Assembly (NCBI GenBank): GCA_003134435.1
Contig: PLBE01000155.1
Span: 1-38,756 of the forward strand
Length of the DNA: 38,756 bases
Source of the DNA: Acidobacteriaceae bacterium
GTDB taxonomy: Bacteria; Acidobacteriota; Terriglobia; Terriglobales; Acidobacteriaceae
Reading direction: 5' to 3'
Positions 20,297-38,354 of this stretch are shown here, piece after piece (positions within the stretch are counted from its first letter, which is position 1; every line of letters starts with the position of its first letter). The notes below the pieces were generated by a model that did not search any database, was not told the origin of the DNA, and worked only from the letters and a program-made list of their open reading frames with translations. The position numbers and the translations under genes are program-made.

Positions 20297-20307
20297 CCTT
20301 ATTCGGT

Positions 20308-21414
20308 ATGCAGAGGCACATGACAAACTCTAAAGTTGTAAAGACAATTCAATCGGGGCTAGGCGGCTGCCATCAGCTTTTGGGTGCCGGTGACACTGGA
20401 CCAACCTCCCGTCGGCGGTTCATGGCTGGGATCGGCGGCGCGGCGGTAAGCCTCTGCGCTTACCCCGGCCTGGTCCATGCGCTGAGCTTCATGTCTGCTC
20501 AAGAGCGGCAAGAAGCGCATCGGTCCGAAGCCCCGGTTCGCCATATCTCGTCTATGTTTCGGGTGGGTGTCATCAGCGACGAGATTTCCCAGGATTTTGG
20601 CCGCGCTTGTGAAGTAGCAGCGCTCGAATTTGGAATGGGTTGGGTCGAGCTCCGCGACTTGTGGAATAAAAATGTCTTGAATCTCGATTCCACCGAACTC
20701 GCGGAGGCGCGCAGAATTCTGCAAAAGTATCAATTGCGCGTGACGGACATTGCCAGCCCGCTTTTTAAGGTGGATTGGCCGGGAGCCCCGCAATCGAAGT
20801 ACAGCCAACACGACGAGTTTAAAGCCGGCTTTACTTTCAACCAGCAGGATGAAGTGTTGGAGCGGGCGCTCCACGCGGCCGCGGCGTTTGAGACCGATCG
20901 CGTGCGTTGCTTCGATTTCTGGCGCTTGCAGGATCAAAAGCCGCATCGCGCGGCCATCAACGACCGCCTGCGGGAGGCGGTGGACAAGGCTGGGAAGAAG
21001 AATGTCATTCTGCTGCTCGAAAATGAGAGCGCCTGCAACACCGCGACGGGAGCGGAAGCGGCGAAAGTCCTGGAGGCAGTCAAGTCACCCTACTTGATGT
21101 TGAATTGGGACCCGGGGAACGCTGCCGCCAGTGGCGAGAAGCCCTATCCCGACGGATATGATCGGCTGCCCAAGGAACGGATCGGTCACTGCCACTGCAA
21201 GGACGCGGTCAAGCGGGGCAACGAATATGAATGGGAAGCGATGGGGCGCGGAATCATCGATTGGGAGGGCCAGTTCAAGGCACTCCGGCGCGACGGCTAT
21301 CGCTATGCGGTAAGTCTCGAGACGCACTGGGATGGCGGCGGCTCTCCGGAAGAATCGTCGCGCCAGAGCTGGTTGGGAATGAAGAAACTTCTGCAGGCAG
21401 CAGACGCTCTGTAA
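20308..21414 (+). CDS. Tat-exported sugar isomerase/epimerase, xylose-isomerase-like TIM barrel
   Basis: A 368-residue protein with a twin-arginine signal (SRRRFM followed by a Gly/Ala-rich hydrophobic stretch) and then a TIM-barrel of the AP-endonuclease-2/sugar-phosphate isomerase family, starting around FRVGVISDEISQDF. Likely metal ligands lie in LLLENES, LNWDPGN, GHCHCKD and VSLETHWDG, the usual Glu/Asp/His positions at the barrel mouth. Relatives act as 3-keto-sugar isomerases, epimerases or eliminases. The ATG at 20308 is chosen because it follows the stop of the DUF885 gene; an ATG at 20320 is equally possible, and the frame opens further up at 20269. It is followed 49 bases later by a Gfo/Idh/MocA gene, with a hairpin (GGCGAG/CTCGCC, 21420-21438) in the gap. 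Confidence 0.85.
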   Translation: MQRHMTNSKVVKTIQSGLGGCHQLLGAGDTGPTSRRRFMAGIGGAAVSLCAYPGLVHALSFMSAQERQEAHRSEAPVRHISSMFRVGVISDEISQDFGRACEVAALEFGMGWVELRDLWNKNVLNLDSTELAEARRILQKYQLRVTDIASPLFKVDWPGAPQSKYSQHDEFKAGFTFNQQDEVLERALHAAAAFETDRVRCFDFWRLQDQKPHRAAINDRLREAVDKAGKKNVILLLENESACNTATGAEAAKVLEAVKSPYLMLNWDPGNAAASGEKPYPDGYDRLPKERIGHCHCKDAVKRGNEYEWEAMGRGIIDWEGQFKALRRDGYRYAVSLETHWDGGGSPEESSRQSWLGMKKLLQAADAL

Positions 21415-21463
21415 CCTGAGGCGAGTTTGAGCCTCGCCCTGCGATATCTCAAGAGGACTCGAT

Positions 21464-22708
21464 ATGAATGTCAAAACTAGACGCGATTTCCTGCAGCAGG
21501 CGGCATTGGGCGCAGCTGCGTTCCTCGCCTACCCGCCCGCGACCGTGCTGGGCGCCAATGATCGCATACGGGTCGGAATGATTGGAGTAGGGAATCGCGG
21601 GCAAGATCTTCTGCAGGAAGTCATGTCGGTGCACGGAACCCAACTGGTGGCGATCGCCGACATCTATAGCCGGCGACGGGACGAAGCTAGGAAGCTGGCG
21701 CCCGGGATCGAGACCTTGGACGATCACCGCCGGTTGCTCGATCGAAAAGACCTCGACGCCATCATTGTCGCCAGTCCATTGCACACGCATGCCCGGCATT
21801 TTCTGGATGTAGTTTCTGCCGGCAAAGACCTTTATGCGGAGAAGACCATGACCTGGTCGATCCCTGAGGCGGAACAGTGTTTGGCCGCAGCGAAGGATTC
21901 CGACCGGGTCGTGCAAATCGGACTGCAATTTCAAAGTTCCGGGGCGCTCGCCGACGCACGCTCGTGGGTTCGAGGCGGGCTGTTGGGAAAAGTTACGCAG
22001 GTGGAATCGTGGATGAGCCGTAATACACCGCATGGGCACGGACAGTGGGTTCGGCCGGTGCCTGCGGACTGCAATCCGCGGAATGTGAATTGGAGCGCCT
22101 TTCTGAATGGCCGTCCCGATCGCCCCTTCGACCCTTATCGATTGATTAACTGGCGATTGTTCTGGGAGTTCTCCGGCGGGAATGTCACGGAGAACATGGT
22201 GCACCAGATCGCGTGGATCATGACTGCGCTGGAGTTGCCGCTACCGTCGGCGGCTTATATGTCGGGCGGCATCTTTTCAGAAAAAGACGGGCGCGAGGTT
22301 CCAGACACGATCGCAGTGACGCTCGATTTTCCCGGCGACGCCGTGGTGACCTGGCAGTCAACTTTCAGCAACAGCCATTTCGGATTGGGCGAGCGCATCC
22401 TGGGTAGCGATGGGACGATTGAACATGGGTGGGAGAAGTCCGACATGGTGAATGGCGAGGAAGGAGAGTTTGTGCGCTATTCTCCTGAAAAAATCAATCA
22501 TCCTCAGGCGGCGGCGCTCACTGGCAAGACGAAAGATCAGGATCACATGACGAATTGGATTGAGTGCATTCGAACCCGCAAAACGCCGAACGCCTCGGTG
22601 GAAATTGGATATCGCTCGGCGATTGCGGCGCACATGGCCAACTTGGCATACCGGCGGAGACAGCGCATCACGCTCGAGGATGCGAAGGCAGTCTCCCCGC
22701 AGTTCTAA
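21464..22708 (+). CDS. Tat-exported Gfo/Idh/MocA family oxidoreductase (1)
   Basis: A 414-residue NAD(P)-dependent sugar oxidoreductase. The N-terminus is a twin-arginine signal (TRRDFLQQAALGAAAF), followed by the Rossmann domain (RVGMIGVGNRGQD) and the C-terminal beta-sheet substrate domain (GGNVTENMVHQ). The family's usual EKP motif is AEKTMTW here, so Pro is replaced by Thr after the catalytic Lys. Export by Tat would carry a folded protein with bound cofactor to the periplasm, as in glucose-fructose oxidoreductase. AGAGGA precedes the ATG. Its stop overlaps the stop of the convergent lacI-type gene (22705-22708). In context it probably reduces or oxidises keto-sugars. Substrate unknown. 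Confidence 0.9.
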   Translation: MNVKTRRDFLQQAALGAAAFLAYPPATVLGANDRIRVGMIGVGNRGQDLLQEVMSVHGTQLVAIADIYSRRRDEARKLAPGIETLDDHRRLLDRKDLDAIIVASPLHTHARHFLDVVSAGKDLYAEKTMTWSIPEAEQCLAAAKDSDRVVQIGLQFQSSGALADARSWVRGGLLGKVTQVESWMSRNTPHGHGQWVRPVPADCNPRNVNWSAFLNGRPDRPFDPYRLINWRLFWEFSGGNVTENMVHQIAWIMTALELPLPSAAYMSGGIFSEKDGREVPDTIAVTLDFPGDAVVTWQSTFSNSHFGLGERILGSDGTIEHGWEKSDMVNGEEGEFVRYSPEKINHPQAAALTGKTKDQDHMTNWIECIRTRKTPNASVEIGYRSAIAAHMANLAYRRRQRITLEDAKAVSPQF

Positions 22709-23775
22709 CTCTGTTCCGAATTCGAATGACCCCTCGCCCGCAATCGATGGGCAGTGTCCAACTTGCGCTTTCGGGGGGCAGCGGTCGACTGGCGAACAAC
22801 TAAACCCGTTTCTAGATAATCGTCGTTCCCTTTGCGGCGTTTTAGCTGCAGCATTTTGTCAAGCGCTTGAAAGGCGATCCGGCCCAGACGCTCTCGTGGA
22901 ACTCGGATGGTAGTCAAAGGCGGGTGCGCCAGGAAGGCGAACGAGATGTCGTCAATGCCGATGACCGAGACATCCTCAGGAATTCTGATTCCTGCCTCCT
23001 GGAGGGCGTTCATTGCTCCCATCGCAATCAAGTCGCTGCCACAAAAAATGATGGTCGGCAGTTCCGGAGCAGCAAGCAGAGAGCGCACCGCCGAGGCGCC
23101 CGCATCCACCCGGTAGTTGCTGTTGACTACGGAGGAAAGACGGAGTTTCTGCTGTTTCAGTCCGGCAACCAGGGTCTGCTTGATAATCACCGCGGTGCGA
23201 TTGTCCTCCGGGCCTGCGATGACTGCGGAATGACGATGGCCGAGTTGCACAATATGGTCGATCGCCTGGGCGATTCCCCGCTGGTAGTCGATGGAAATGT
23301 TACCGACCAATTTTTCGGCGGGACCCAGGTTGCAGAACACGACTCCAATTCCAGCCGCGGTTAATTCCGCGGTTCCGCTCTTATCGAACGATGAGGTCAT
23401 GATCGCAACTCCGCGAACATCGCTCTCGATGAGTTTCTGAATCACCGATACGCTCCGTTGCGGGTCATATTCGGTATTGCATAGCACCACGTCGAATCCG
23501 CGATCCCACGCTTCCGCCTGAAAACCGCGAATGATCTCGGGAAAATACGGGTTGATGATCTCCGAGATGACTAGGCCGAACAGATCGCTGCGCCCGGTGG
23601 CCAAACGGCGGGCATGAACATTTTTGTGATACTTCAATTGCCGAACTACTTCGAGGACCCGGCGCTCGGTTTCGGGCGCAATGACATGAGTGCGGTTCAG
23701 CACCCGCGAGACCGTTGCCTTGGAAACTCCCGCGCGCGACGCCACCTCGCTCATGGTGTGGCTCATCGCAGGCAT
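22705..23775 (-). CDS. LacI-family transcriptional repressor
   Basis: A 356-residue regulator. The N-terminal helix-turn-helix is classic (VASRAGVSKATVSRVLN), with hinge helix ARRLATGRS and a periplasmic-binding-protein-like effector domain (about 63-335, with GLVISEIINPYF and DDISFAFLAHPPLT). It most likely binds a sugar or keto-sugar. It is divergent from the DUF1080 operon, and the 286-base region between them carries two tandem pairs of GAAACCGGTTTC-type palindromes, one pair close to each gene; autoregulation plus control of the operon is the natural reading. The start at 23775 has GGGGA in front; ATGs at 23766 and 23754 are alternatives. The C-terminus ends in a basic/Ser-rich tail. Confidence 0.93.
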   Translation of the reverse strand: MPAMSHTMSEVASRAGVSKATVSRVLNRTHVIAPETERRVLEVVRQLKYHKNVHARRLATGRSDLFGLVISEIINPYFPEIIRGFQAEAWDRGFDVVLCNTEYDPQRSVSVIQKLIESDVRGVAIMTSSFDKSGTAELTAAGIGVVFCNLGPAEKLVGNISIDYQRGIAQAIDHIVQLGHRHSAVIAGPEDNRTAVIIKQTLVAGLKQQKLRLSSVVNSNYRVDAGASAVRSLLAAPELPTIIFCGSDLIAMGAMNALQEAGIRIPEDVSVIGIDDISFAFLAHPPLTTIRVPRERLGRIAFQALDKMLQLKRRKGNDDYLETGLVVRQSTAAPRKRKLDTAHRLRARGHSNSEQS

Positions 23776-23871
23776 TCCCCGGTGGAGATCCCAACTTCGA
23801 TCTGGAGGAGAGTTCCCGCCCCGTGGTCGCGGGAAACAACTGCGGCATGGGGTCGCGATCGCGGCATGGAT

Positions 23872-23896
23872 GGAACCGGTTTCCGAAACCGATTAC
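23872..23896. promoter_or_regulatory. LacI-type tandem operator pair, lacI side
   Basis: GGAACCGGTTTC (23872-23883) and GAAACCGATTAC (23885-23896) are one and two mismatches from the palindrome GAAACCGGTTTC, separated by a single base. The central CG flanked by AAAC/GTTT is typical of LacI-family sites. The pair lies about 97 bases before the lacI-type start codon. Confidence 0.75.
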
Positions 23897-23984
23897 ATAA
23901 ACACCTGAAACTACCACGGATTTTAAGCAAAGACCACATGGAGATGACCTGGCATAAAGTCGATCCATGGGCGGGGGAATAAGC

Positions 23985-24011
23985 TTGACAAGGCGCAGAG
24001 GCGAGTATACA
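23985..24011 (+). promoter_or_regulatory. Promoter of the DUF1080 operon
   Basis: A perfect TTGACA at 23985-23990, then TATACA at 24006-24011 (15-base spacer). The predicted start near 24018 sits directly against the operator pair beginning at 24021, the ideal place for a repressor to block polymerase. Confidence 0.65.
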
Positions 24012-24020
24012 AGGTTTGTG

Positions 24021-24045
24021 GAAACCGGTTTCAGAAACCGGTTTC
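24021..24045. promoter_or_regulatory. LacI-type tandem operator pair, operon side
   Basis: Two perfect copies of the 12-bp palindrome GAAACCGGTTTC, at 24021-24032 and 24034-24045, separated by one A. It lies between the predicted start of transcription and the ATG at 24062. The geometry (12 + 1 + 12) is identical to the pair on the lacI side. Confidence 0.85.
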
Positions 24046-24061
24046 CATCACAGGAAAACTT

Positions 24062-25054
24062 ATGATTTCGAGGCAATTGCAAACCCTGCTTTATGCCATC
24101 CTGCTGGCCACTTTCATGGGATCGGTTTCCGCCACTTGCGCCGGCGCACGCGTCACGCTCGACGCGCCTGCTCCAAATGCCGACGCCGCCAAGCCCTTTC
24201 TCGGCCGTTGGGATTTAACGCTCAAGGCTCCCGACCGCGAGTATCCCTCGTGGCTGGAAATTCGCATGGACGATGGCAAACTGACGGCCCAGATGACCGG
24301 CCGTTGGGGAAATGCCCGACCCCTTCCCAAGGTAGAAGTTTCGGGCGACCAAGTGACCTTTGTTTCGCCCAAGGAAGAAGAGGATTCTCCGTCCGATTGG
24401 GTCTTTGTCGGAAACCTCGTCGGAAAGACGCTCTCCGGCTCTGTCACCGGACCCAAAGGAGGCCCGTGGACTTGGACCGGCGAACCCGCCCCCTTGCTCC
24501 ACAGAAAAGGCGCGCCGAAATGGGGGAAGCCAATCTCGTTGTTCAACGGAAGAGACTTGACGGGATGGAAAATGAGCGATCCCAATGCTGCAACCGCCTG
24601 GAAGGTGGAGAACGGGACGCTCATCAGTCCAGGACATGGGCCGGAGATTATTAATGAGCGAAAGTTTGGAGATTTCAAACTGCACGTCGAGTTTAACTGC
24701 GGCGTGAACGCCAATAGCGGAGTCTATGTCCGGGGCCGCTATGAAGTCCAGATCGAGGACAATTCCATTCAGGAACCCCCCAGTCATCACACCGGAGGCG
24801 TGTACGGGTTCATCGCACCCTCGCCCGAACTGCCGCGCAAGCCGGGAGAATGGCAAACCTTCGACATCACTCTCATTGGGCGAATGATCACGGTTGTGCA
24901 GAATGGCCAGACGATCATCGACAATCGGGAAATCCCCGGTATTACAGGCGGCGCTCTTGATAGCCATGAGGAATTACCCGGGCCCATCTATCTGCAGGGC
25001 AGCGAAGACAACCACGTTGCTTTTCGGAACATCGTGATCACGCCGGCCAAATAG
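24062..25054 (+). CDS. DUF1080 3-keto-disaccharide/glycoside hydrolase with N-terminal extra domain
   Basis: A 330-residue exported protein: Sec signal at about 1-28, an extra beta-rich domain at about 40-150 (FLGRWDLTLK, ITGRWG-like strands, GKTLSGSVTG), then a DUF1080 (3-keto-disaccharide hydrolase, concanavalin-like jelly roll) at about 157-328. The latter is marked by LFNGRDLTGWK, NSGVYVRGRYEVQI and PIYLQGSEDNHVAFRNI. In the known pathway this domain cleaves the glycosidic bond of sugars first oxidised at C3. It is the first gene after the repressed promoter, and the SIS gene follows after 5 bases, so they form one operon. Assignment to a precise substrate is inference. Confidence 0.88.
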   Translation: MISRQLQTLLYAILLATFMGSVSATCAGARVTLDAPAPNADAAKPFLGRWDLTLKAPDREYPSWLEIRMDDGKLTAQMTGRWGNARPLPKVEVSGDQVTFVSPKEEEDSPSDWVFVGNLVGKTLSGSVTGPKGGPWTWTGEPAPLLHRKGAPKWGKPISLFNGRDLTGWKMSDPNAATAWKVENGTLISPGHGPEIINERKFGDFKLHVEFNCGVNANSGVYVRGRYEVQIEDNSIQEPPSHHTGGVYGFIAPSPELPRKPGEWQTFDITLIGRMITVVQNGQTIIDNREIPGITGGALDSHEELPGPIYLQGSEDNHVAFRNIVITPAK

Positions 25055-25059
25055 CGTGG

Positions 25060-26199
25060 ATGGCCATTACCACGACTGAACTCAGAGATTGGATTCAGAC
25101 AGCGTCTTGGGCGAGGCAGCAGATGACACATTTTCTCCAGGACATACTCCGGCAGCCGCGAGAACTGGAGCGAACCCTCGGCTACCTTTCCGGGGCTGGC
25201 AACCATGATCTGCAGGCGGCCGCCGATGCGATTCGCAGAGCTCGCCATGTTTATCTGACTGGGATCGGCAGCAGTTGGCATGCGGCGTTCGGAGCGGGAG
25301 TCGTCTTTTTCAGCGCCGGAAAACCAATCTACATGCAAGACGCCGGAGAACTGGTACAGTTTGCCAAGTTTCCACCGGAGTCGCTCATTATCGCCATATC
25401 CCGCAGTGGGCGCAGCGTGGAGATTGTGAACCTGCTGGCAAAAGCTCGCGCGAGCGGCGCTACGGTCATTGGCATCACCAGCACGGCCGACGGCATACTG
25501 GCGCAGGAAGCGCAGCGCTCTATGTTGATTCCGACCGCTCGCGATCATGCCATCTCGGTGAATACTTATTCCACTCTCGCGGTTGCGGCGGCGGCTCTCG
25601 CGCAAGCGACAGTCGACTCTTTTGACGGAAAGCTCGCCGCCACGCTTCGGTGTTCAGTGGCCGAGGCCGAGCGCAGGATCCCAAACTGGCAGGCCCAGAT
25701 TGCAGGCAGCAGCTGGCTGGCTCCAGGTAAGCTTGTCCATTTTCTGGCTCGCGGCAGCAGTCTGGGAAGCTGTCATGAAGCCAGACTCTTGTGGGAGGAA
25801 GGCGGGAAATCCGAAGCGACCGCTTTAGCTACCGGCAGCTTCCGGCACGGGCCACAAGAAATGGTGGCAGAGGCGTCCCGCTTCGCGATGTGGATCGACG
25901 GACAACGATGCCGCGAGCAAGATTTGTCCGTAGCCCGCGACTTAAGGCGTCTGGGAGCGTCGGTCATGGTGATCGGCCAGAGTATCCCGCCCGACGCCGG
26001 CGATCTTGTTCTTCAACTCCCTCCGGTGCCGGAAGAATGGCAGTTCATGGTCGACATTCTACCCGCGCAACTGGCGGCGGAAAATCTGGCCCGGCTTTCG
26101 GGAGTGGATTGTGATTCGTTCCGCGTCTGTTCGTATATTGTCGAGGACGAGTATGGACTGATCGGAGCGGAGGCCACTGCTCCTAAGACGGCTAAGTAA
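25060..26199 (+). CDS. Tandem SIS-domain sugar isomerase/deaminase (GlmS C-terminal/AgaS-like)
   Basis: A 379-residue cytoplasmic protein with two sugar-isomerase (SIS) domains at about 45-180 and 205-350. Phosphosugar-binding elements are clear: TGIGSSWHAA, the SRSGRSVE serine loop, and in the second domain an active-site-like GSFRHGPQEM equivalent to the KHGP of GlmS. The glutaminase half of GlmS and its C-terminal Lys region are missing, so it is more like AgaS/FrlB-type aldose-ketose isomerases, deaminases or deglycases. No signal peptide is present, unlike most neighbours. It lies 5 bases behind the DUF1080 gene. The ATG at 25123 (FLQDILRQP just after it, GAGG 8 bases before) is an alternative start. 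Substrate unknown. Confidence 0.85.
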   Translation: MAITTTELRDWIQTASWARQQMTHFLQDILRQPRELERTLGYLSGAGNHDLQAAADAIRRARHVYLTGIGSSWHAAFGAGVVFFSAGKPIYMQDAGELVQFAKFPPESLIIAISRSGRSVEIVNLLAKARASGATVIGITSTADGILAQEAQRSMLIPTARDHAISVNTYSTLAVAAAALAQATVDSFDGKLAATLRCSVAEAERRIPNWQAQIAGSSWLAPGKLVHFLARGSSLGSCHEARLLWEEGGKSEATALATGSFRHGPQEMVAEASRFAMWIDGQRCREQDLSVARDLRRLGASVMVIGQSIPPDAGDLVLQLPPVPEEWQFMVDILPAQLAAENLARLSGVDCDSFRVCSYIVEDEYGLIGAEATAPKTAK

Positions 26200-26282
26200 C
26201 AGTATGGATTGCAAAGTGAAGTTTACCGAGTCGATAGAATACGGTGTTATCTACAAAGACTAGCAGCCCCAGGAGGCTATTC

Positions 26283-27638
26283 ATGAAGAGAAGTTTTTTT
26301 TCGCGCCGTGAATTTCTAGGCTTGGGCGCAGCCGCCGCCGGCGCTTCGCTGGCCGGGAAAACGATCTTGCTCGGTCCTGAACCGCTGTTCGCATCGGAGG
26401 TTCCCGTAGCGCCGAGCGATCGCCTTCGTTTCGGAATCATTGGAATTGGCATGCAGGGAAACTGGCTGCTGAGCAGCGCCATCGAACTGCCGGGTGTGGA
26501 GTGCGTAAAGGCCTGCGATTTATACGACGGTCGTCACACGCTGGCTCGCGAAATCACCGACAAGCCGAATTTGCCTGTGACTCGACGCTACCACGAACTC
26601 CTGGAAGACAAAGACATCGATTGCCTCATTGCCGCGGTACCCGATCACTGGCACAAGCAGATCGTCGTGGATGCGGTTTCGGCGGGCAAGGACATTTACT
26701 GCGAGAAGCCCATGTCACACACCGCCGCCGAAGGAGTTGAGATGTCCGAGGCGCAAAAGCGCACCGGTCGCATTATCCAGATTGGCTCGCAACGCGTCAG
26801 TTCGCTGATCTGCAAAAAAGCGAAAGAGATGGTCGATCAGGGCATGCTCGGCGACTTGATGATGGTGGAAGGATGGCTGGGTCGTAACGATCCAACCGGG
26901 GCCTGGGAATATCCGCCGCCCTTCGATCTTTCGCCGGAGAACCTGGATTGGGATACGTGGCAGGGCACGGTGCCGAAACGGCCGTTCAACCCTGAGATTT
27001 TTGCGCGGTGGCGATGCTGGAAAGAATATGGCACCGGTGTGGCCGGCGATCTGCTCGTGCATCTGGTGAGCGGCATGATGTTTGTGCTCGGCTGGAACGA
27101 GGCTCCGAAGCGCGCGATGGCGATGGGCGGAATCTTGCGCTGGAAAGACGGCCGCAACATGCCGGATGTTCACGGAACCCTGTTTCAATACGGCGATATC
27201 CCCGTCTATATGCGATTGAACCTGGGCACCGAGATGCCGGAAACTTACCGCTTCCAGGGATCGAAGGGGATCCTGGAAATGACGGAGTTTGGGCTAAGCT
27301 TCACCCCGCAGACCGGTAAAGATTCTGGCCCCAGCTACTACGACGGCAGTTTCCCGCACGCCATGCGCGATGCTTACGAGAAAAGATGGCATGAGGAAAA
27401 CACTCCCAGGCTCGGTCATGAGCCGATGCCGGAAACAATCTCGTTCAAGGGTCCGGATTACGACGACGTGAAGCCCCATCTGTGGGCTTTCTTCGAAGCA
27501 GTACGCTCGCGCAAGCCGGTCGTAGAGGACGCCGTCTTCGGCCATCACGCCGCCTTGGCTTGCCACATGGCGAACGAGTCGTATTTTCGCCAGCAGGCGG
27601 TGCATTGGGATGCAGTCACCAGAATGATCAAGAGTTGA
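26283..27638 (+). CDS. Tat-exported Gfo/Idh/MocA family oxidoreductase (2)
   Basis: A 451-residue NAD(P)-dependent oxidoreductase. The start at 26283 is certain: AGGAGG lies 6 bases before the ATG, while the open frame to 26244 has none. The Tat signal is textbook (SRREFLGLGAAAAG). Next come the Rossmann loop FGIIGIGMQGN, the conserved CEKPM with catalytic Lys, and a long C-terminal substrate domain (GVAGDLLVHLVSG, with the His of the DLxxH motif). It is longer than enzyme (1) and differs from it in having the canonical EKP, so the two are not a recent duplication. Probably periplasmic with tightly held cofactor, acting on keto- or deoxy-sugars in the C3-oxidation scheme. Confidence 0.92.
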   Translation: MKRSFFSRREFLGLGAAAAGASLAGKTILLGPEPLFASEVPVAPSDRLRFGIIGIGMQGNWLLSSAIELPGVECVKACDLYDGRHTLAREITDKPNLPVTRRYHELLEDKDIDCLIAAVPDHWHKQIVVDAVSAGKDIYCEKPMSHTAAEGVEMSEAQKRTGRIIQIGSQRVSSLICKKAKEMVDQGMLGDLMMVEGWLGRNDPTGAWEYPPPFDLSPENLDWDTWQGTVPKRPFNPEIFARWRCWKEYGTGVAGDLLVHLVSGMMFVLGWNEAPKRAMAMGGILRWKDGRNMPDVHGTLFQYGDIPVYMRLNLGTEMPETYRFQGSKGILEMTEFGLSFTPQTGKDSGPSYYDGSFPHAMRDAYEKRWHEENTPRLGHEPMPETISFKGPDYDDVKPHLWAFFEAVRSRKPVVEDAVFGHHAALACHMANESYFRQQAVHWDAVTRMIKS

Positions 27639-27731
27639 TCTGGAGTTGAGGCGGCTCCGAATGCGTTGACAGTCTGGCGCCGCCCGCTTCAATCGCTCGT
27701 ATTTCTTGGGTCTCTGTTTTGGGGAAATGCC

Positions 27732-31181: not shown

Positions 31182-31223
31182 CCCGTTGTTCATGTCTATT
31201 TCACACTTCCAGGGAGAATGCCG

Positions 31224-31835
31224 ATGGCGGGACAGAACATTGAGCGCCGCGAAATTCTACGCATCCTGGCCGTCGCCGCGGCTGCCGCTGGCTTCCCGGG
31301 TTTCCAGAAGTGGGCATTCGCCGGCGCCCATTCTCACAGTTCTCTTGCCCAGATCAAACCCACCGCTTATCGGCCCGTGTTCTTTCGCGAGCAGGAGTAC
31401 GCCTTGGTCGAGCGACTGACCGACATCATTATTCCGTCGGATGAAACTCCCGGCGCTCGCGAGGCTGGCGTTTCTGAGTTCATCGATCTCATGGCGTCCC
31501 GGGATACATCCCTGCAAAACAGATTTCGCGCCGGATTGATGTGGTTGAACAATCATAGCCGCAAGCGAAGAGGAAAACTGTTCCTCGCGCTCGCAGCGGA
31601 AGAACAAGTCGCATTACTGGAACCGCTGGCATACAAGGCGAAGTATCGCGCTGGAGAAGAGCGCGGGCGCGATTTTTTTGACCTCATTCGCGAGTACACG
31701 GTGATGGGTTTCTACACTACCGAAATTGGCCTCAAGGAATTGGACTTTCCCGGGCTCCGGTTCTATTCGGAGTCACCGGCATGTCCGCACCAGAACGATC
31801 CAGAGCATCGCCATCTTCCCTCGCCGAACTGGTAG
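31224..31835 (+). CDS. Small subunit of GMC dehydrogenase (gluconate 2-dehydrogenase subunit 3 / G3DH gamma type)
   Basis: A 203-residue protein of the gluconate-2-dehydrogenase subunit-3 family. A twin-arginine signal (ERREILRILAVAAAAAG) starts it, and the core follows: FFREQEYALVERLTDIIIPSDETPGAREAGV, then DLMAS and a helical middle. The tail has the conserved YSESPACPHQNDPEHRH. In known glucoside-3-dehydrogenases and FAD-glucose dehydrogenases this subunit carries the catalytic subunit through the Tat system. The ATG at 31224 has GGAG 7 bases before it; an ATG at 31218 lies too close to the same site. It lies 42 bases after the TonB receptor and immediately before the GMC gene, so the three are probably cotranscribed. 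Confidence 0.9.
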   Translation: MAGQNIERREILRILAVAAAAAGFPGFQKWAFAGAHSHSSLAQIKPTAYRPVFFREQEYALVERLTDIIIPSDETPGAREAGVSEFIDLMASRDTSLQNRFRAGLMWLNNHSRKRRGKLFLALAAEEQVALLEPLAYKAKYRAGEERGRDFFDLIREYTVMGFYTTEIGLKELDFPGLRFYSESPACPHQNDPEHRHLPSPNW

Positions 31836-31840
31836 AACTC

Positions 31841-33514
31841 ATGCCCCATCGGATCTATGACGTCATTGTGATTGGGACCGGCGCCGGCGGCGGCATGGCC
31901 ATCAAGACATTATGTGAAGCCGGATTGAAAGTCTGTGCTCTGAACTCCGGGCGCAGGCTGGATCCCCACAAAGATTTTCGCAGCCACCGCATGCCCTGGG
32001 ATTTGAAGTATCGAGGTTTTGGCGACCCACAAACTCACTCTGCGTCGGAGCCCGATTTTCCCGGTCCATCCGAGTACGTGCATGGAGCCTGGGAGACAGA
32101 GCACGTCCACACCACTGCGCCGGGCACCGATTGGGTCTGGCCACGCTGCTCCGCAGTCGGAGGCAAGACAAATTTCTGGGGACGCAGCTCCGCTATTTTC
32201 GGCGACATCGACTTCCGTGCGGCATCGCTCGATGGCTACGACGTCGATTGGCCGGTCACGTACGCGGAGATGGCGCCCTACTATCGACGCGTTGAACAAA
32301 TGGTGGGTGTCGCCAGCACAGTCCAGAACCGTCCCAGCAATCCTGATGGCATCTACCTGCCGCCGATGAATTTCCGTTGTCTCGATATGATCCTGCAGAA
32401 AGGAGCCGAGAAGGTTGGCGTGCCTTATCTGCCCGATCGAATTTCCCAACTTACCGTTCCGCTCGGCACCCATCCCGCGTGCCACTATTGTGGGAATTGC
32501 ACCAGTGGGTGCGACGTGGGCGCGTTTTTTTCTGCACCTTATTTTCTGCTGCCTGCGGCCGAGGCGAGCGGCAATCTCGAATTGCGAACCAATGCGCTAG
32601 CCCGGAACATCGTGGTGGATGAAAGCGGACAAGCGCAGGGGGTCGCTTACATTGATCGCCAAAGCAGGCGGGAATTCGAGGTCTATGGCCGCGCCATCGT
32701 GATTGCGGCATCGTGTCTTGAGACGACGCGAATCATGCTGAATTCAAAATCACGGCATTGGCCCACGGGTATTGCGAATTCCAGTGGACAACTCGGGCGC
32801 AACCTCTGCGACCATCTTTACGGGATTGCCGCGTCTGGATACCTTCCACAACTCGTGGGCCAGCCCAGCTTTCCCGACAATGTTTCGGACAGTTCGATCG
32901 CCTGGATGCCCCGCTGGCAGAACCTGCTTCATCCCCGCGAAGAGAAGTTTATTCGCGGCTACTCCGTCTATCCCGATGGCGGATGCTGGGAATTTCCCTC
33001 ATACCAGGATGAGATCGAAGGCTTCGGATCCTCATTCAAGCGCGAGATCAAGCGCCGATACCCCGCGCCCATCAGCATGATGACACAAATACCAACTCTA
33101 ACCTCGCCCCAGAACTTTGTGGATATCGATCCCCAGGCCGTCGATTCCTACGGCGTACCAACACTCCGCGTCCATTTTCAGTGGGGCGCCAACGAACTAG
33201 CCATGTGGGAGCATAGCAAGACAATGTGCGGTGAGGTCATGCGAGCGGCGGGCGGCATAGTGGATTTCGTTGCCGACCACCCCGAAAGTCCGGGTTACAG
33301 CCAGCATGAAATTGGAACTTGCCGGATGGGCAACGATCCCAGAAAGTTTGTCACGAATCGTTTTGGTCAAACCCACGATGTTGCTAACCTATATGTCGCC
33401 GACGCTAGCCTATTTGTTAATGTAACCGACAAGCCACCGGCATTTTCCATCCTGACCTTCTCGCTCCGCACCAGTGAGCACATCGTACAACAATTCCGCG
33501 ATCACACACATTAG
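31841..33514 (+). CDS. GMC-family FAD dehydrogenase, probable glucoside 3-dehydrogenase catalytic subunit
   Basis: A 557-residue flavoprotein. An FAD-binding Rossmann motif opens it (YDVIVIGTGAGGGMA), and the GMC C-terminal part carries the catalytic His489 in HEIGTCRMG and the closing NLYVADASLF. A four-cysteine run, Cys214-x2-Cys217-x2-Cys220-x3-Cys224 (CHYCGNCTSGC), resembles the 3Fe-4S site of bacterial FAD-glucose dehydrogenases. It has no signal of its own and would hitchhike on the Tat signal of the small subunit. It should oxidise C3 of glycosides and pass electrons to a carrier, but no cytochrome gene is adjacent. The ATG at 31841 is 5 bases after the previous stop; an ATG at 31781 with GGAG upstream would overlap that gene by 55 bases and is a real alternative. 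Confidence 0.9.
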   Translation: MPHRIYDVIVIGTGAGGGMAIKTLCEAGLKVCALNSGRRLDPHKDFRSHRMPWDLKYRGFGDPQTHSASEPDFPGPSEYVHGAWETEHVHTTAPGTDWVWPRCSAVGGKTNFWGRSSAIFGDIDFRAASLDGYDVDWPVTYAEMAPYYRRVEQMVGVASTVQNRPSNPDGIYLPPMNFRCLDMILQKGAEKVGVPYLPDRISQLTVPLGTHPACHYCGNCTSGCDVGAFFSAPYFLLPAAEASGNLELRTNALARNIVVDESGQAQGVAYIDRQSRREFEVYGRAIVIAASCLETTRIMLNSKSRHWPTGIANSSGQLGRNLCDHLYGIAASGYLPQLVGQPSFPDNVSDSSIAWMPRWQNLLHPREEKFIRGYSVYPDGGCWEFPSYQDEIEGFGSSFKREIKRRYPAPISMMTQIPTLTSPQNFVDIDPQAVDSYGVPTLRVHFQWGANELAMWEHSKTMCGEVMRAAGGIVDFVADHPESPGYSQHEIGTCRMGNDPRKFVTNRFGQTHDVANLYVADASLFVNVTDKPPAFSILTFSLRTSEHIVQQFRDHTH

Positions 33515-33535
33515 AAGCCCCAGCTTACTTTCGGG

Positions 33536-35359
33536 CTATATCGCTCGCAAATAGGTTGAATACTGCTCTTCTTCAATATCAGTAAATGGCTTCATTTTCA
33601 CCACGCCACCAGCTGCCTTCACCTCCCAGGTCCGGTTGTTCATCCGCTTAGCGGCGAGTAAGTCGGCCCGGGTCAGCTGCGGTTGCGTATCCGTAATCGG
33701 AAACAACACAAGCGGCCCAAACACTAATGCGACAGTCTGCGGATGCTGCGGATCCACTGCTTCCAACCCGAGCCTCATCGGTAGATCCAGTTCAATGCGA
33801 TCACCCGTCCTCCACTGGCGGTGGATGGCGGCAAAACTCCCCGGGGTCGCCAATTGTCTCTCGCGTCGGCCGTTAATCGAAATCGAAACTCCAGTCGCCC
33901 AGACCGGAATCCGCACATTCACGGTAAACTCCCTCGTCTGCGAAGAAGTCACTTCCAATTGCACGACGCTGTCAAAAGGGTACTGACTCTTCTGTGTCAG
34001 CGCGACAACAGCGCCATCCTGGTTCCAGCGAAGCGTCGATGGAATGTATAAGTTGACATACACACCTTGCGCATCTCGAAAGTACGCGTTGATACGATAA
34101 TCGGCGGCGACTTGCGGCAGCGTTCCTGAACAGCAAGCCCACCGTTGGGTGGGCCGGTATACCTTGTGCCCGTGGAAATTGTAGTCGGAGTAATAAAACG
34201 TCCGGCCGTCCGCCATTAACGGTTTCGCACCCAGCACCGTGTTGTACATCATACGTTCCATGCTATCTCCGTACTTAGAGTCACGGGTCACGCGCAACAG
34301 GTAACGTGTCAACTTGAAGTGCGCGTAGCCTCCACAAGGCGTTTCAAAACTACTATGGCTACCGGTCAAGCTGGCATGAACGTCTCCGCTGCCGGGTGCC
34401 CGAAGGGTCTCATCGGGCCCCCAGCCTCCGGTGGCAAAACTTTGCTTCGAGAGCATTTCGAACGCGTTGGTCGCGGCACGAAGATGTTTCTCGCTGCCCA
34501 AAGTGAGATACGCCTGCATCGCCGAACTCAGAGAGTTTACATAACTATAGGCGTGCCTTCCCGCTAAAACATCGCGGCCCTCAGATAGCGGATCGTAATA
34601 CTCGTCGTCAAGATACTGCCGCCCCAACTCGCGGTATCTGTCGCCAGCGCCGCGCTGATATGCCAGAAACAGATTTTCCGACATTGTGTACGATTCGTCC
34701 CATGTCCAACTCTGATCCTTGTTTGGCCGCCAGTCCCTGCCGTGTTCGACCGCATGCTTGGGAAAGTGGGGCAATGCAGTGTTTGTAGTGTGTTCGAGAA
34801 TCGAGAACGCGTCCGGATCACCAACGTATCTGTGGGAATCGATCAACCCAAGCACGATCTTGTCGTAGCAATATGTTGGGAAACGGTTATTTTCGTAGTA
34901 ATCGCCAGAAATCGTCTGCGCGTACAGCCGGTTCAAGCGCAATACTTTGTCACGAGTCGGCTGGTCTCGACGGATGGCGTACATGCGGGCGAGGGCCGAA
35001 ACCCATTGCCCAAAAGTACAACTGGGAGCAAAACCGTCATCATCCTTGCCCCACTGGTAGTCGGGACTATAGTGATACCAGCCACCCAGGTCTTCGCCCG
35101 GCGCTGGCTGCCCGCTCATCTGGCGCAGCGGCTTCAGCAGACTGTCGTCGCTCAAGCCCATCAGAACAGCATGTGTCTGGTCCAGTTGCTTCTCATGGAG
35201 GTCGCTTGTGAGTACCACATCACCATAATCAAACTGCTCGAGGGGCGATTTACCGGCGAGCATATGTGGGAGCCAGCAACCAGGAATTGCAATCCCCGCG
35301 GTAATCAGTGAAGCCGACTGCATCAACTGTCGGCGCGAAAGCTTGGCACAAGTGGACAT
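33536..35359 (-). CDS. GH127-like glycoside hydrolase (DUF1680), Tat signal
   Basis: A 607-residue protein of the DUF1680 superfamily, whose studied members are beta-L-arabinofuranosidases (GH127/GH146). A twin-arginine signal (SRRQLMQSAS) starts it and PGC near residue 28 could be a weak lipobox. The body is an alpha/alpha barrel (WDESYTMSENLFLAYQRG, ALYNTVLG-like MMYNTVLGAKP) followed by beta domains (FTVNVRIPVWATGVSISING). The zinc-thiolate active site is probably Glu339-Thr-Pro-Cys342 and Cys409-Cys410 (ACCSGT); characterised enzymes have Glu-x-Cys and Cys-Cys-Pro, so the spacing here differs. Last gene of a - strand operon with two GH30 genes, convergent with the GMC gene 21 bases away. 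Confidence 0.88.
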   Translation of the reverse strand: MSTCAKLSRRQLMQSASLITAGIAIPGCWLPHMLAGKSPLEQFDYGDVVLTSDLHEKQLDQTHAVLMGLSDDSLLKPLRQMSGQPAPGEDLGGWYHYSPDYQWGKDDDGFAPSCTFGQWVSALARMYAIRRDQPTRDKVLRLNRLYAQTISGDYYENNRFPTYCYDKIVLGLIDSHRYVGDPDAFSILEHTTNTALPHFPKHAVEHGRDWRPNKDQSWTWDESYTMSENLFLAYQRGAGDRYRELGRQYLDDEYYDPLSEGRDVLAGRHAYSYVNSLSSAMQAYLTLGSEKHLRAATNAFEMLSKQSFATGGWGPDETLRAPGSGDVHASLTGSHSSFETPCGGYAHFKLTRYLLRVTRDSKYGDSMERMMYNTVLGAKPLMADGRTFYYSDYNFHGHKVYRPTQRWACCSGTLPQVAADYRINAYFRDAQGVYVNLYIPSTLRWNQDGAVVALTQKSQYPFDSVVQLEVTSSQTREFTVNVRIPVWATGVSISINGRRERQLATPGSFAAIHRQWRTGDRIELDLPMRLGLEAVDPQHPQTVALVFGPLVLFPITDTQPQLTRADLLAAKRMNNRTWEVKAAGGVVKMKPFTDIEEEQYSTYLRAI

Positions 35360-35433
35360 GTCGGCAGCCCGTCCCTTTCACATTCAACGTTCAATATCTC
35401 GCCGCTGGCGCGCCGCGAGCGAATGAGTTCTGT

Positions 35434-36918
35434 TTACTTCCATTCAAAGGTCGCAACCGATTGCGAAGGCAGTGCATAATTGAAGTAACTGCCTTTCCAA
35501 CTCACCGAAAATGTTTGAGGCGCGCTCCCCGCGTTCAGGACAAACAGGACGATCGATCCATCAGGATTCTGAAACGCAACATCCTCAATTCCACCAGGAT
35601 TCGTCGGATCTGAATCGATGCGGTGGGCTCCCGGCAAAACAAACTTGGCCAGGTGACCGAGCACGTAATATTCGACGTTGTAGTCAACGGTCGCGGGAGA
35701 GGTACTGCTGTCAATCGTGACTACACCACGGCAATTCATGCAGCCGCCATTGGTTGGTCCCGAGTTCTCATCGAGTGCCAGGTTCCACAATGAGATACTG
35801 CGCGCCCAGTTACGAGTCGCTCCTATCAGCAGGTTCTCAGAGTTCCACACCAGGTCACCAGCAAAATTAGATCCTACAGTTCCACTACATTCCGTAAACC
35901 AGATGCCTTTGCCCGGATAAGCGGCTTCCACCGCAGATTGCGCACTTACATCACCGTTGTAACAATGGAAAGAACTGCCCGCCACATATGTGGACGCGGA
36001 ACTGCCGAGGACAGACTCTGGATAGCTCGTGTTGTCCCAGTTATGTTCGTAAGCGAAAATCTTCACCGCGCCCAGCCCGTTACTGCTCAACGCCGGTCCA
36101 AGGTAGTTAGCGATAAAAGTGGATTCATCGGTTGGATCCAGGTACTCGCTTGGGTAAGAACTGGTCGAATTGAGCGGTTCGTTCTGCACGGAAATGGCAT
36201 AAATGGGAATCCCGGCCTGCTGATAGGCCTGCAGAAATAAGACAAAGTACTGCGCCATGCTTGAAAAGTAGGCGGTGTTCATATTGCCGCCATTCATGGT
36301 GCCACTCGTCTTCATCCATGCCGGTGGACTCCACGGAAGCGCGACCACATGGGCAGAGGGGTTGATCGAGAGCGCCTGCTGCAACAAAGGGAGAATATAA
36401 GCCGTGTCATGCGCGATTGAAAATTGAGCGAGTTGTGGATCATTTTGCCCCGAGGCAACATCATCGTAACTGTAGTTGCCATTCACCGCAAAATCCGTGG
36501 CTCCCATCGGCTGGCGCAGAAAGCTCAGGCCGATCCCCGCTGTCGGACTGAATAGCTGTTGCATTAGCGCTGCTTGTTGCGTTGAGTCCAGATCATTCGA
36601 GATGACCCACGCCGACGAATCGGTCAACGAGGCGCCGAAGCCGTCAATTTCCTGATACTGATTGTTGTCGCTCACAGTGATCACCGGCGAACTCTGGTTG
36701 CCCCCGGTTCCGAAAGAGACCGTGGACTGAGGCTGCAGCAACCTGGTTTGGTCGCCAGTAGTCACGACCGCTTGCACATTTGGACCTGTCGTTGCGACGG
36801 TCATAGTCTGGTTGCCGCCGCAAGCTACCAGCCCCAGAGCCAGAAAGAGAGTAAGCGAAAAAATAACAACAATCTTCCGATCAACCCGGATATTCGACAT
36901 GCAATCGGCCAATCTCAT
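35434..36918 (-). CDS. GH30-family glycoside hydrolase, lipoprotein
   Basis: A 494-residue retaining glycoside hydrolase of family 30. A signal with lipobox LVAC makes it a lipoprotein, probably surface or periplasmic. The GH30 barrel shows EIDGFGASLTDSSA, the segment LPWSPPAWMKTSG, acid/base Glu247 (SVQNEP) and nucleophile Glu343 (WFTECSG); a beta-sandwich ends with SVATFEWK. Family activities include glucosylceramidase, beta-1,6-glucanase and beta-xylosidase/fucosidase, and I cannot choose among them. The ATG at 36918 overlaps the stop of the upstream GH30 gene as ATGA and has AAGGA in front, so the pair should be translationally coupled; the frame is open to 36939. Confidence 0.92.
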   Translation of the reverse strand: MRLADCMSNIRVDRKIVVIFSLTLFLALGLVACGGNQTMTVATTGPNVQAVVTTGDQTRLLQPQSTVSFGTGGNQSSPVITVSDNNQYQEIDGFGASLTDSSAWVISNDLDSTQQAALMQQLFSPTAGIGLSFLRQPMGATDFAVNGNYSYDDVASGQNDPQLAQFSIAHDTAYILPLLQQALSINPSAHVVALPWSPPAWMKTSGTMNGGNMNTAYFSSMAQYFVLFLQAYQQAGIPIYAISVQNEPLNSTSSYPSEYLDPTDESTFIANYLGPALSSNGLGAVKIFAYEHNWDNTSYPESVLGSSASTYVAGSSFHCYNGDVSAQSAVEAAYPGKGIWFTECSGTVGSNFAGDLVWNSENLLIGATRNWARSISLWNLALDENSGPTNGGCMNCRGVVTIDSSTSPATVDYNVEYYVLGHLAKFVLPGAHRIDSDPTNPGGIEDVAFQNPDGSIVLFVLNAGSAPQTFSVSWKGSYFNYALPSQSVATFEWK

Positions 36919-38354
36919 GCTTCCTTCGACCACACCCATGTCGTGATCGAATCCTCTTCCAGAACAGCGTCGGCCTGCATCGATCCGATTTGCACGGTAG
37001 TTTTCTGGGCGGCTCCGAAGTTAGTCATGACTAACACCTTGGTTCCGTCAGGATTCGCGAAGGCCGCGTGACTGACCTTAGTCAATGCGCTTTCAGAATC
37101 AAAGCGGCGCGCACCTCGACGAATAGCGCGCGAAAAGTGCGCCAACCCCCAGTATTGCCCGCTGCGGGTAATTTCCCGAGTCCGGGAGTCGATTGTCACC
37201 AGACCTCCACATTTAAATGGCCCAATATTCGGACGGCCTAGTTCATCCAGCGCCAGATTCCAGCCGGTGATCGAGGCGCACCAGTTACGCAAAACTGCGG
37301 TAAAATCACGCCCCCATTGCGCCCAGTCGGTCAGGTAGTCGGTGCTCACATAGTCCGGACCACCTTCGGTCCAGTGCATATCGGCTCCAGGATGAGCATC
37401 GTGAGCCCTCGTCATCATTTCCGGAATGCCAACGTAACCATGCCAGGCAATCGCGTCGCAGTATTTCCGCAGGTTCGGGTCATCGAGCTCCGCAACCGCT
37501 CGGCCCCACAGATTGTAATTGTGATCGAGAATCCAGATCTTAGTCGAGAGACCCTGCTTTTCCAGCAACGGCCCGAGGTGTTTGCCTACGAACTCGATTT
37601 CATACTCCTGTGGCCAAATACAGGCGGGCATACGCGCGTCCTGGTCGGTGTCCACTTCATTTTGGGGCGTGACCGCCTGAATCTGAATTCCTTCTTGCGC
37701 ATACGCCTGCAGAAACTTCAGAAAGTAGTCTGCGTAGACGTCCAGGTACCGGTGTCGCATCGAGCCCCCCAGGATCGATCCTCCCGATTTCATCCAGCCC
37801 GGCGGACTCCACGGCGACGAAAAAAGAAAGATCTCGGAATTCACCTTCCGAGCCTCGCGCAACATCGGCAGAATGTAATGGCGGTCCTGCTCGATCGAAA
37901 AACGCTCCAGTTCCGGATCAACTTCCCCTTCGTCGTAGCTGTAGGGCTTGACCGAATAATCGCTCGATCCGATGCAGGTACGGCAAACGTTGAGCGCCAT
38001 TTCGTCGGGATGAAATAATTCGTGGAAAAGGACTTGGCGGGCCGGCGCCGAGAGTTGGTTGAACATGTAGCAGGCGGCATCCGTAAACGCCGCGCCAAAA
38101 CCCAGAATCGTCTGAAATTGTTTCGCCGCGTTCAGCACAATCGCCGGCGCGGCGGGATCGGCGCTCGCGGACCGCCATTGCTGCCCGTCTGTACGGGCAA
38201 AGCGCTTCATCCCACTCGTGATCCAGACCGAAATCTCTCCCGGTGGCCGCGCCGAATCGATGCCGAACCGGGGTAGGGCCCCGGCGGTTGCGGTGGCTAC
38301 CAGTCCTGCGGCCGAGGATCTTAGAAACTCTCGTCTGGTTTTTCTGATCGTCAT
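36915..38354 (-). CDS. GH30-family glycoside hydrolase, Tat-exported
   Basis: A 479-residue family-30 glycoside hydrolase with a twin-arginine signal (TRREFLRSSAAGLVA). The barrel has ILGFGAAFTDAA, SSPWSPPGWMKSGG, acid/base Glu233 (TPQNEV) and nucleophile Glu330 (HWTEGG), so it should be active. It diverges clearly from the second GH30 gene (different signal type, TPQNEV versus SVQNEP), suggesting different targets, not a fresh duplicate. It is the first gene of the operon; its stop overlaps the next start as ATGA. The 5' leader contains a hairpin-plus-U-tract structure (38402-38468). Tat export of a glycosidase without a cofactor is unusual. Precise linkage unknown. Confidence 0.92.
   Translation of the reverse strand: MTIRKTRREFLRSSAAGLVATATAGALPRFGIDSARPPGEISVWITSGMKRFARTDGQQWRSASADPAAPAIVLNAAKQFQTILGFGAAFTDAACYMFNQLSAPARQVLFHELFHPDEMALNVCRTCIGSSDYSVKPYSYDEGEVDPELERFSIEQDRHYILPMLREARKVNSEIFLFSSPWSPPGWMKSGGSILGGSMRHRYLDVYADYFLKFLQAYAQEGIQIQAVTPQNEVDTDQDARMPACIWPQEYEIEFVGKHLGPLLEKQGLSTKIWILDHNYNLWGRAVAELDDPNLRKYCDAIAWHGYVGIPEMMTRAHDAHPGADMHWTEGGPDYVSTDYLTDWAQWGRDFTAVLRNWCASITGWNLALDELGRPNIGPFKCGGLVTIDSRTREITRSGQYWGLAHFSRAIRRGARRFDSESALTKVSHAAFANPDGTKVLVMTNFGAAQKTTVQIGSMQADAVLEEDSITTWVWSKEA

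Follow-up and report, generated by a model that had tools for sequence, protein, structure and literature searches.

An oxidation-first pathway of glycan breakdown was reportedly described in a 2024 Nature paper for Bacteroides thetaiotaomicron, where the gene set BT2157-BT2160 is said to encode a DUF1080 protein, Gfo/Idh/MocA enzymes and a TIM-barrel protein. LacABC is a dehydrogenase of the GMC plus subunit-3 type, with a cytochrome c as third subunit. According to passages of PMC9007349, growth of Caulobacter on lactose requires both LacABC and a DUF1080 gene; the same text refers to BT2157 as a 3-ketotrehalose hydrolase. DgpA-type enzymes, as portrayed in sections of PMC11239390, carry nicotinamide adenine dinucleotide (NAD(H)) and follow a ping-pong cycle in which 3-oxo-glucose serves as the oxidant. 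Here we analysed a stretch of DNA from an Acidobacteriaceae bacterium (hereafter the window), which comprises the first 38,756 bases of the 56,740-base contig PLBE01000155.1 in a 5.75-Mb assembly, and in which a first-pass annotation had placed an 18-kb locus for glycoside C3-oxidation. From sequence comparison we consider it somewhat probable that the window contains a LacI-controlled operon (24062-33514) for oxidation-first beta-glucoside cleavage, in which the Gfo/Idh/MocA enzyme GfoB would carry out the oxidation, the DUF1080 protein would cleave and the GMC dehydrogenase would be accessory.

All genes named in the first-pass annotation were recovered at the same coordinates in an open reading frame check, and the named domains all exceeded the Pfam cut-offs in the window proteins: AP_endonuc_2 (TIM barrel), two Gfo/Idh/MocA, LacI, DUF1080, SIS, TonB plug and barrel, Gluconate_2-dh3 (subunit 3), GMC, GH127 and two GH30. 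The reading of these genes as an oxidation-first set that is kept in relatives was supported. The 18-kb locus did not hold together as a single unit: it is three units, the GH30 and GH127 genes facing the other way without an operator and the TIM-GfoA pair often being found elsewhere. Unit (i) (24062-33514, all on the plus strand) contains the genes for the DUF1080 protein (24062-25054), a predicted double-SIS phosphosugar isomerase (25060-26199), GfoB (26244-27638), a TonB-dependent outer-membrane receptor assigned by Pfam (CarboxypepD_reg/OMP_b-brl_4; 27666-31181), subunit 3 (31218-31835) and the GMC dehydrogenase (31781-33514). The intergenic gaps are of 5-44 bases and subunit 3 overlaps the long GMC frame by 55 bases; orthologues point to starts downstream of the longest frames for SIS (25123), GfoB (26283) and GMC (31841). 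Unit (ii), the TIM-GfoA pair, lies upstream, and the convergent LacI gene (22705-23775, minus strand) stands between it and unit (i). Unit (iii), convergent with unit (i), contains the GH127, GH30a and GH30b genes on the minus strand. Chance co-location was rejected for unit (i) and for the GH30/GH127 neighbours by their conservation in relatives.

The constant core of the system is the GfoB-DUF1080 pair and not GMC. The search with GfoB as bait covered 150 genomes of the order, and 19 of the loci obtained were examined, namely 16 at 59% identity or more (a split gene in G083 was left out) and three of the 11 at 56-58%; 14 further loci, fetched with the DUF1080 or SIS bait or being the window itself, were not counted. 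A DUF1080 gene on the strand of the bait and no more than 1.5 kb from it was present in 15 of the 16 loci of the first class, in 0/3 of the second and in 0/12 control loci, which were our own choice among paralogues of 43-47% (two of these controls showed weak DUF1080 matches 3.4 and 4.5 kb away). The difference in adjacency, 15/19 against 0/12, gives a Fisher p of 1.6e-5. Adjacent and conserved oxidoreductase and DUF1080 genes, by which 3-keto-glycoside catabolic systems are recognised, were therefore found in this group. The first-pass annotation had expected the neighbourhood to be kept in relatives, and this stands for part of it: the order TIM-GfoA-LacI-DUF1080-SIS-GfoB-TonB is kept in genomes G016 and G017, but GMC and subunit 3 are missing there. 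In G018 the order is kept from LacI to TonB.

The DUF1080 protein has a Sec-type N-terminus and scores 149 bits with PF06439, against a cut-off of 26.8; it is the one DUF1080 match in the assembly. A conserved core was visible in a 13-row alignment, from which a split gene in G019 and the weaker matches were omitted. Matches at E of about 1e-89 or better were obtained in 11 of 24 genus genomes, the window's own included (in G019 as two frames), and any match in 18/41 genomes. Among the named DUF1080 loci surveyed, which are the best 80 of at least 474, the nearest were metagenome-assembled genomes of Terriglobia and of Candidatus Sulfotelmatobacter (Acidobacteriota). The conserved N-terminal domain of about 110 residues (window 24062-24530) is also covered by the Bacteroidota matches.

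GfoB is a candidate glycoside 3-dehydrogenase. The solved structures closest to it are 8tdf and 8tdh (both named 'Dehydrogenase'), and the five best matches include DgpA entries (E 1e-15). Among the NCBIfam models BT_2158 glycoside 3-dehydrogenase scores best without reaching its cut-off; both GfoA and GfoB stay below the cut-offs of BT_2158 and BT_2159. An EKP motif was found in 31/31 GfoB frames over 495 bits. A loose twin-arginine translocation (Tat) motif of the RRxF type was counted in frames of more than 150 amino acids and more than 190 bits, with the window proteins excluded and some frames cut by the stretch ends. It was present in 32 of 33 GfoB frames, and the exception is the C-terminal part of a G121 gene that is broken into two frames. 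The counts for this motif in the other families were GfoA 11/11, subunit 3 5/5, TIM 14/21, SIS 2/10, DUF1080 1/20, GMC 0/11 and ROK kinase 0/8. The earlier proposal that nearly all steps take place outside the cytoplasm thus agrees with the export signals carried by most enzymes, but not with SIS, in which no such signal was seen; because of this, one conserved step is probably cytoplasmic.

One important question is whether C3 is oxidised mainly by the GMC/subunit-3 pair, with DUF1080 cleaving the product and both Gfo enzymes only reducing the released keto-sugar. The pair continues the operon, its genes either overlapping or separated by short gaps, its combination of GMC with a Tat-signalled subunit 3 is that of LacABC-type enzymes, and the pairing of LacABC with DUF1080 is established in Caulobacter (PMC9007349). 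The GMC protein has no signal of its own and carries the Cys-rich motif CHYCGNC (CxxCGxC in 10/11 GMC relatives); among solved structures it matches glucose and fructose dehydrogenases best, which fits a dehydrogenase handing electrons on. No cytochrome c domain, corresponding to the third subunit of the LacABC type, was detected among the 13 genes scanned (18545-38354); the remaining genome was not searched. GMC genes also recur near DUF1080 genes. They adjoin one in loci L122 and L154, and in G042, G120 and G134 less closely related GMC genes are found no more than 5 kb from the GfoB-DUF1080 pair; the GMC orthologue of G015 has a LacI gene and another DUF1080 gene as neighbours.

Against this, the syntenic loci in G016, G017 and G018 contain neither GMC nor subunit 3, and no GMC match was obtained in the genomes G016 (82% complete), G017 (92%) and G008 (99%), all of which keep GfoB-DUF1080; G018 has one distant GMC match (37%) elsewhere in the genome. 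Only three of the 80 named DUF1080 loci contain a GMC match at the strict threshold used. The closest GMC orthologues (59-74%) lie on another contig than the core in G003, G004, G011 and G001, where the contig breaks leave linkage to the core possible, and 1.5 Mb away in G015. In the G004 stretch the order is LacI-GH30b-GH30a-SIS-ROK-MFS-subunit 3-GMC. GMC, which had been regarded as the defining oxidase, is probably not so: it recurs with C3-oxidation chemistry and is not required for the core. It is not irrelevant either, given its place within this operon and the repeated occurrence of GMC genes close to DUF1080 in other loci. We consider a GMC-based oxidation possible but unlikely, and GfoB is retained as the preferred oxidase.

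The control of unit (i) was analysed next to the LacI gene, whose product exceeds the cut-offs for LacI and Peripla_BP_3. Twin perfect operators, two copies of the palindrome GAAACCGGTTTC with a 13-bp pitch (24021-24045), lie directly downstream of TTGACA and TATACA, which are read from the sequence with a 15-base spacer. An upstream pair of LacI-type operators, GGAACCGGTTTC followed by GAAACCGATTAC (23872-23896), lies 149 bp before the twin sites. The promoter scan, which required a spacer of 16-18, did not list TTGACA/TATACA, and the sigma-70 and terminator scans performed no better than shuffles. With up to two mismatches, six operator-like sites were found in the window against 1.87 expected (2/100 shuffles reached six); four form the two operator pairs and the remaining two fall within the LacI and GfoB genes, so that none is located by the GH genes or before TIM.

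LacI orthologues stand beside operators in G016, G017, G018 and on contig C1 of G003 (G003:C1). G016, G017 and G018 share the operator layout of the window, with a spacing of 149, 148 and 158 bases, respectively, and then 13; in G003:C1 the twin sites precede SIS, as does a single site in G015:C10 (directly before the frame) and in G010 (one mismatch). With at most one mismatch, 14 sites were found in the 162,114 bases of five loci (that of the window, G000, and those of G016, G017, G018 and G003:C1) against about 0.31 expected from base composition, and all 14 fall between LacI and the operon. The other stretches tested were mostly without a site, G010 and G029 having one elsewhere. In the alignment of the five loci the operators are the best conserved block, TTGACA being kept in 4/5 and TATACA in 2/5 with variants in the rest. 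The predicted sites are thus palindromes at the regulated promoter, conserved with the LacI regulator, and their distribution and conservation indicate that LacI is likely to be a repressor of unit (i) only. The other perfect GAAACCGGTTTC, on contig C118, was considered as a second target; it lies inside a TonB receptor frame and is not claimed.

The convergent genes encode a GH127-like protein with a Tat/lipoprotein-like N-terminus (33536-35359, minus strand), GH30a with a lipoprotein-like N-terminus (35434-36939, minus strand) and GH30b with a Tat motif (36915-38354, minus strand). The best model for both GH30 proteins was NF053856, the endo-1,6-beta-glucanase BT3312, and their best Protein Data Bank match was 5ngk, which carries the depositors' name Glucosylceramidase and is named in the paper on BT3312 (PMC5481569). 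Human glucosylceramidase matched as well, less closely. Xylosides and glucosylceramides had been suggested as substrates; the match to the human enzyme keeps a place for them, but the GH30s score best against BT3312, so 1,6-beta-glucan is a better first test. Our best guess from these similarities is that the substrate would be fungal beta-glucan.

This assignment also raises the alternative of an ordinary hydrolytic locus for 1,6-beta-glucan of the fungal wall, acting through GH30 and GH3, with the C3-oxidation genes serving another glycoside, e.g. a plant or phenolic glucoside. GH30_3 and GH3 make up the enzyme pair of the B. thetaiotaomicron 1,6-beta-glucan locus (PMC5481569), and the GH genes of the window have no operator-like site. 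In relatives, GH30, GH3, GH16, GH127 or GH20 genes adjoin the core; GH3 is beside GfoB in G003:C40, G008 and G010 and 6 kb off in G017. However, the 12 kb on either side of GfoB gave no GH3 match in G016, G018 or the window's genome, though GH30 or GH127 is present there. We regard a purely hydrolytic locus as quite unlikely, and the C3-oxidation genes remain, in our preferred reading, part of beta-glucoside cleavage.

SIS was searched in 25 relatives and in the 150 genomes of the order (among G019-G024 only G022 was covered, through the order sample), and 11 orthologues were found. SIS lies within 1.2 kb of GfoB in seven of the 11 loci (G000, G003, G015, G016, G017, G018 and G138). In G010 both are on one contig about 16 kb apart, in G004 and G001 they are on separate contigs, and the only GfoB relative in G093 is a paralogue (43%) on a contig other than that of SIS. 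ROK kinase, MFS transporter or both occur within about 6 kb of SIS in G003, G004, G010, G015, G016, G017 and G138. The structural model of SIS (mean predicted local distance difference test, pLDDT, 86.7) matched GlmS isomerase domains and the E. coli tagatose-6-phosphate ketose/aldose isomerase. The isomerase site of GlmS has E488 and H504, and its Schiff-base lysine is K603. In SIS the site Glu and His are present (E247 and H263, identical in 14/14 rows) and the lysine is absent: its position is Tyr in 11/11 locus-type SIS, Gln in G133 and Lys in 2/2 paralogues of the window's genome. This loss rests on the sequence alignment alone, because residues 358-379 have pLDDT under 50. SIS is probably a cytoplasmic phosphosugar isomerase, distinct both from GlmS and from the typical deaminases. 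The idea that it replaces a missing glucose-6-phosphate isomerase (PGI) was weakened by a PGI match (65 bits, 965-codon frame) elsewhere in the genome.

An amino-sugar locus would use SIS as glucosamine-6-phosphate deaminase, with the ROK kinase, the MFS transporter and an adjoining nagA. NagB-II and GlmS are indeed among the SIS relatives, nagA and a GlmS-isomerase-like gene lie just beyond the window, and GH20 adjoins GH30a in G008. The Tyr at the lysine position of the locus-type SIS, against Lys in the nagA-linked SIS, argues otherwise, albeit in a low-confidence stretch of the model, as do the best models of the G004 ROK (glucokinase) and MFS (GluP), both below cut-off. We judge this function very improbable. 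A different and still doubtful possibility is that SIS is a new phosphosugar isomerase without the GlmS lysine, salvaging phosphorylated 3-keto-hexoses: leaked keto-sugar would be imported, phosphorylated by ROK and returned to central metabolism. If true, this would close the unknown end of 3-keto-sugar catabolism. Beyond the window end, nagA (over the NCBIfam cut-off) and the stand-alone GlmS-isomerase-like gene occupy contig positions 38969-41406 (L028:213-2650), divergent from GH30b. A second MFS-SIS-ROK module is present on contig C73 (L102:1731-5024) with a TonB receptor nearby, and its SIS keeps the lysine.

In the pathway that we propose, the GH30 enzymes would cut 1,6-beta-glucan outside the cell and the TonB receptor, judging from its family, would import the oligosaccharides. 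In the periplasm, Tat-exported GfoB with tightly bound NAD may oxidise C3 of the terminal glucose, as its DgpA and BT2158-type homologues suggest, and the 3-keto-glycoside would then be cleaved by DUF1080, in line with the function of this family. The released 3-ketoglucose could take the hydride from GfoB-NADH and give glucose; this recycling would be redox-neutral, and therefore no free NAD would be needed outside. The subunit-3/GMC pair would be accessory, priming the cycle or draining electrons, and the sugar would enter the cytoplasm, be phosphorylated and be handled by the SIS isomerase.

Several observations weigh against this proposal. GfoB reaches 114.2 bits (GfoA 121.5) against the 750-bit BT_2158 cut-off, indicating a related protein and not an equivalog, and because of this low score the site of oxidation is not settled. 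The GMC gene is inside the operon here and its product may be the main oxidant in the window's strain, and two of the GMC-lacking assemblies, G016 and G017, are only 82% and 92% complete. The GH30s score 345.5 and 231.6 with NF053856, whose cut-off is 700. G003:C1 keeps LacI-SIS-GfoB-TonB-ROK-MFS together with these operators, but the 20 kb examined contain no DUF1080 (G003 does carry a GfoB-DUF1080 pair on contig C40), and G143:C91 has GfoB without DUF1080. GfoB matched, at the strict threshold, in only eight of the 80 named DUF1080 loci, many of them from Bacteroidota and several being short stretches; the pair is therefore shown mainly within the order. ROK and MFS are not in the window locus, and the closest ROK of this genome (72%), with an adjoining MFS, is on contig C73 with a SIS paralogue.

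The TIM-barrel protein, an isomerase/epimerase with a Tat motif (20269-21414, plus strand), and GfoA, a second Gfo/Idh/MocA protein with Tat and EKT motifs (21464-22708, plus strand), form a separate unit. The TIM frame begins within the 3' end of an upstream DUF885 gene, which was rejected as a member of the system since it had no match in the stretches examined around the core of G016 or G017. E200, D230, H256 and E300, which we take to be the usual metal ligands of the fold, are kept in the TIM protein (alignment without L190). No reaction was assigned to it, because the fold search gave only general ketose 3-epimerase/isomerase matches. TIM orthologues occur in 92/150 genomes of the order (E 1e-25), which weakens TIM as a locus-specific step; being a common gene with GfoA as usual neighbour, in a pair often located elsewhere, it has a loose tie to the operon. 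TIM and a Tat-type GfoA were together in at least nine of 19 other TIM loci fetched (L185-L198), and in the control genomes G155, G100, G168 and G157 TIM lies 7-10 kb from a GfoB paralogue without adjoining DUF1080. In Agrobacterium, two putative sugar phosphate isomerases/epimerases are a beta-eliminase and, on preliminary grounds, a hydratase, according to PMC10628242.

The chemistry is known from other bacteria; the gene set with the extra SIS isomerase, kept in relatives, looks like a new version of it. The conserved operon joins DUF1080 and Gfo to one LacI and to a phosphosugar isomerase, with a kinase and a transporter added in relatives, and thereby points to a concrete way in which keto-sugar catabolism could end in the cytoplasm. 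Its content also suggests that oxidation-first chemistry may be applied to beta-glucans by soil acidobacteria, and that NAD enzymes exported by Tat can function outside if the bound cofactor is recycled.

Like BT2157-BT2160, the window has DUF1080, Gfo/Idh/MocA enzymes and a TIM-barrel protein; it differs in adding LacI with twin operators, SIS in the operon, GMC/subunit 3 and GH30 neighbours, and in its GfoA and GfoB, which are below the BT_2158 and BT_2159 cut-offs. With LacABC and DUF1080 of Caulobacter crescentus, as described in passages of PMC9007349, it shares an oxidising dehydrogenase with an exported DUF1080 protein, but the window locus has two dehydrogenase subunits only, GMC is not kept at the syntenic loci and GfoB is the constant partner. 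The 1,6-beta-glucan locus BT3309-BT3314 of Bacteroides resembles it in the GH30_3-like enzymes and the outer-membrane importer (PMC5481569); the window differs in lacking a GH3 match within 12 kb of GfoB and in having oxidation genes beside the GH30s. Finally, GfoB belongs to the same Gfo/Idh/MocA family as the DgpA-type C-glycoside 3-oxidoreductase portrayed in sections of PMC11239390, and by analogy may share its bound NAD and 3-keto-sugar acceptor, but it differs in having a Tat motif and a DUF1080 partner.

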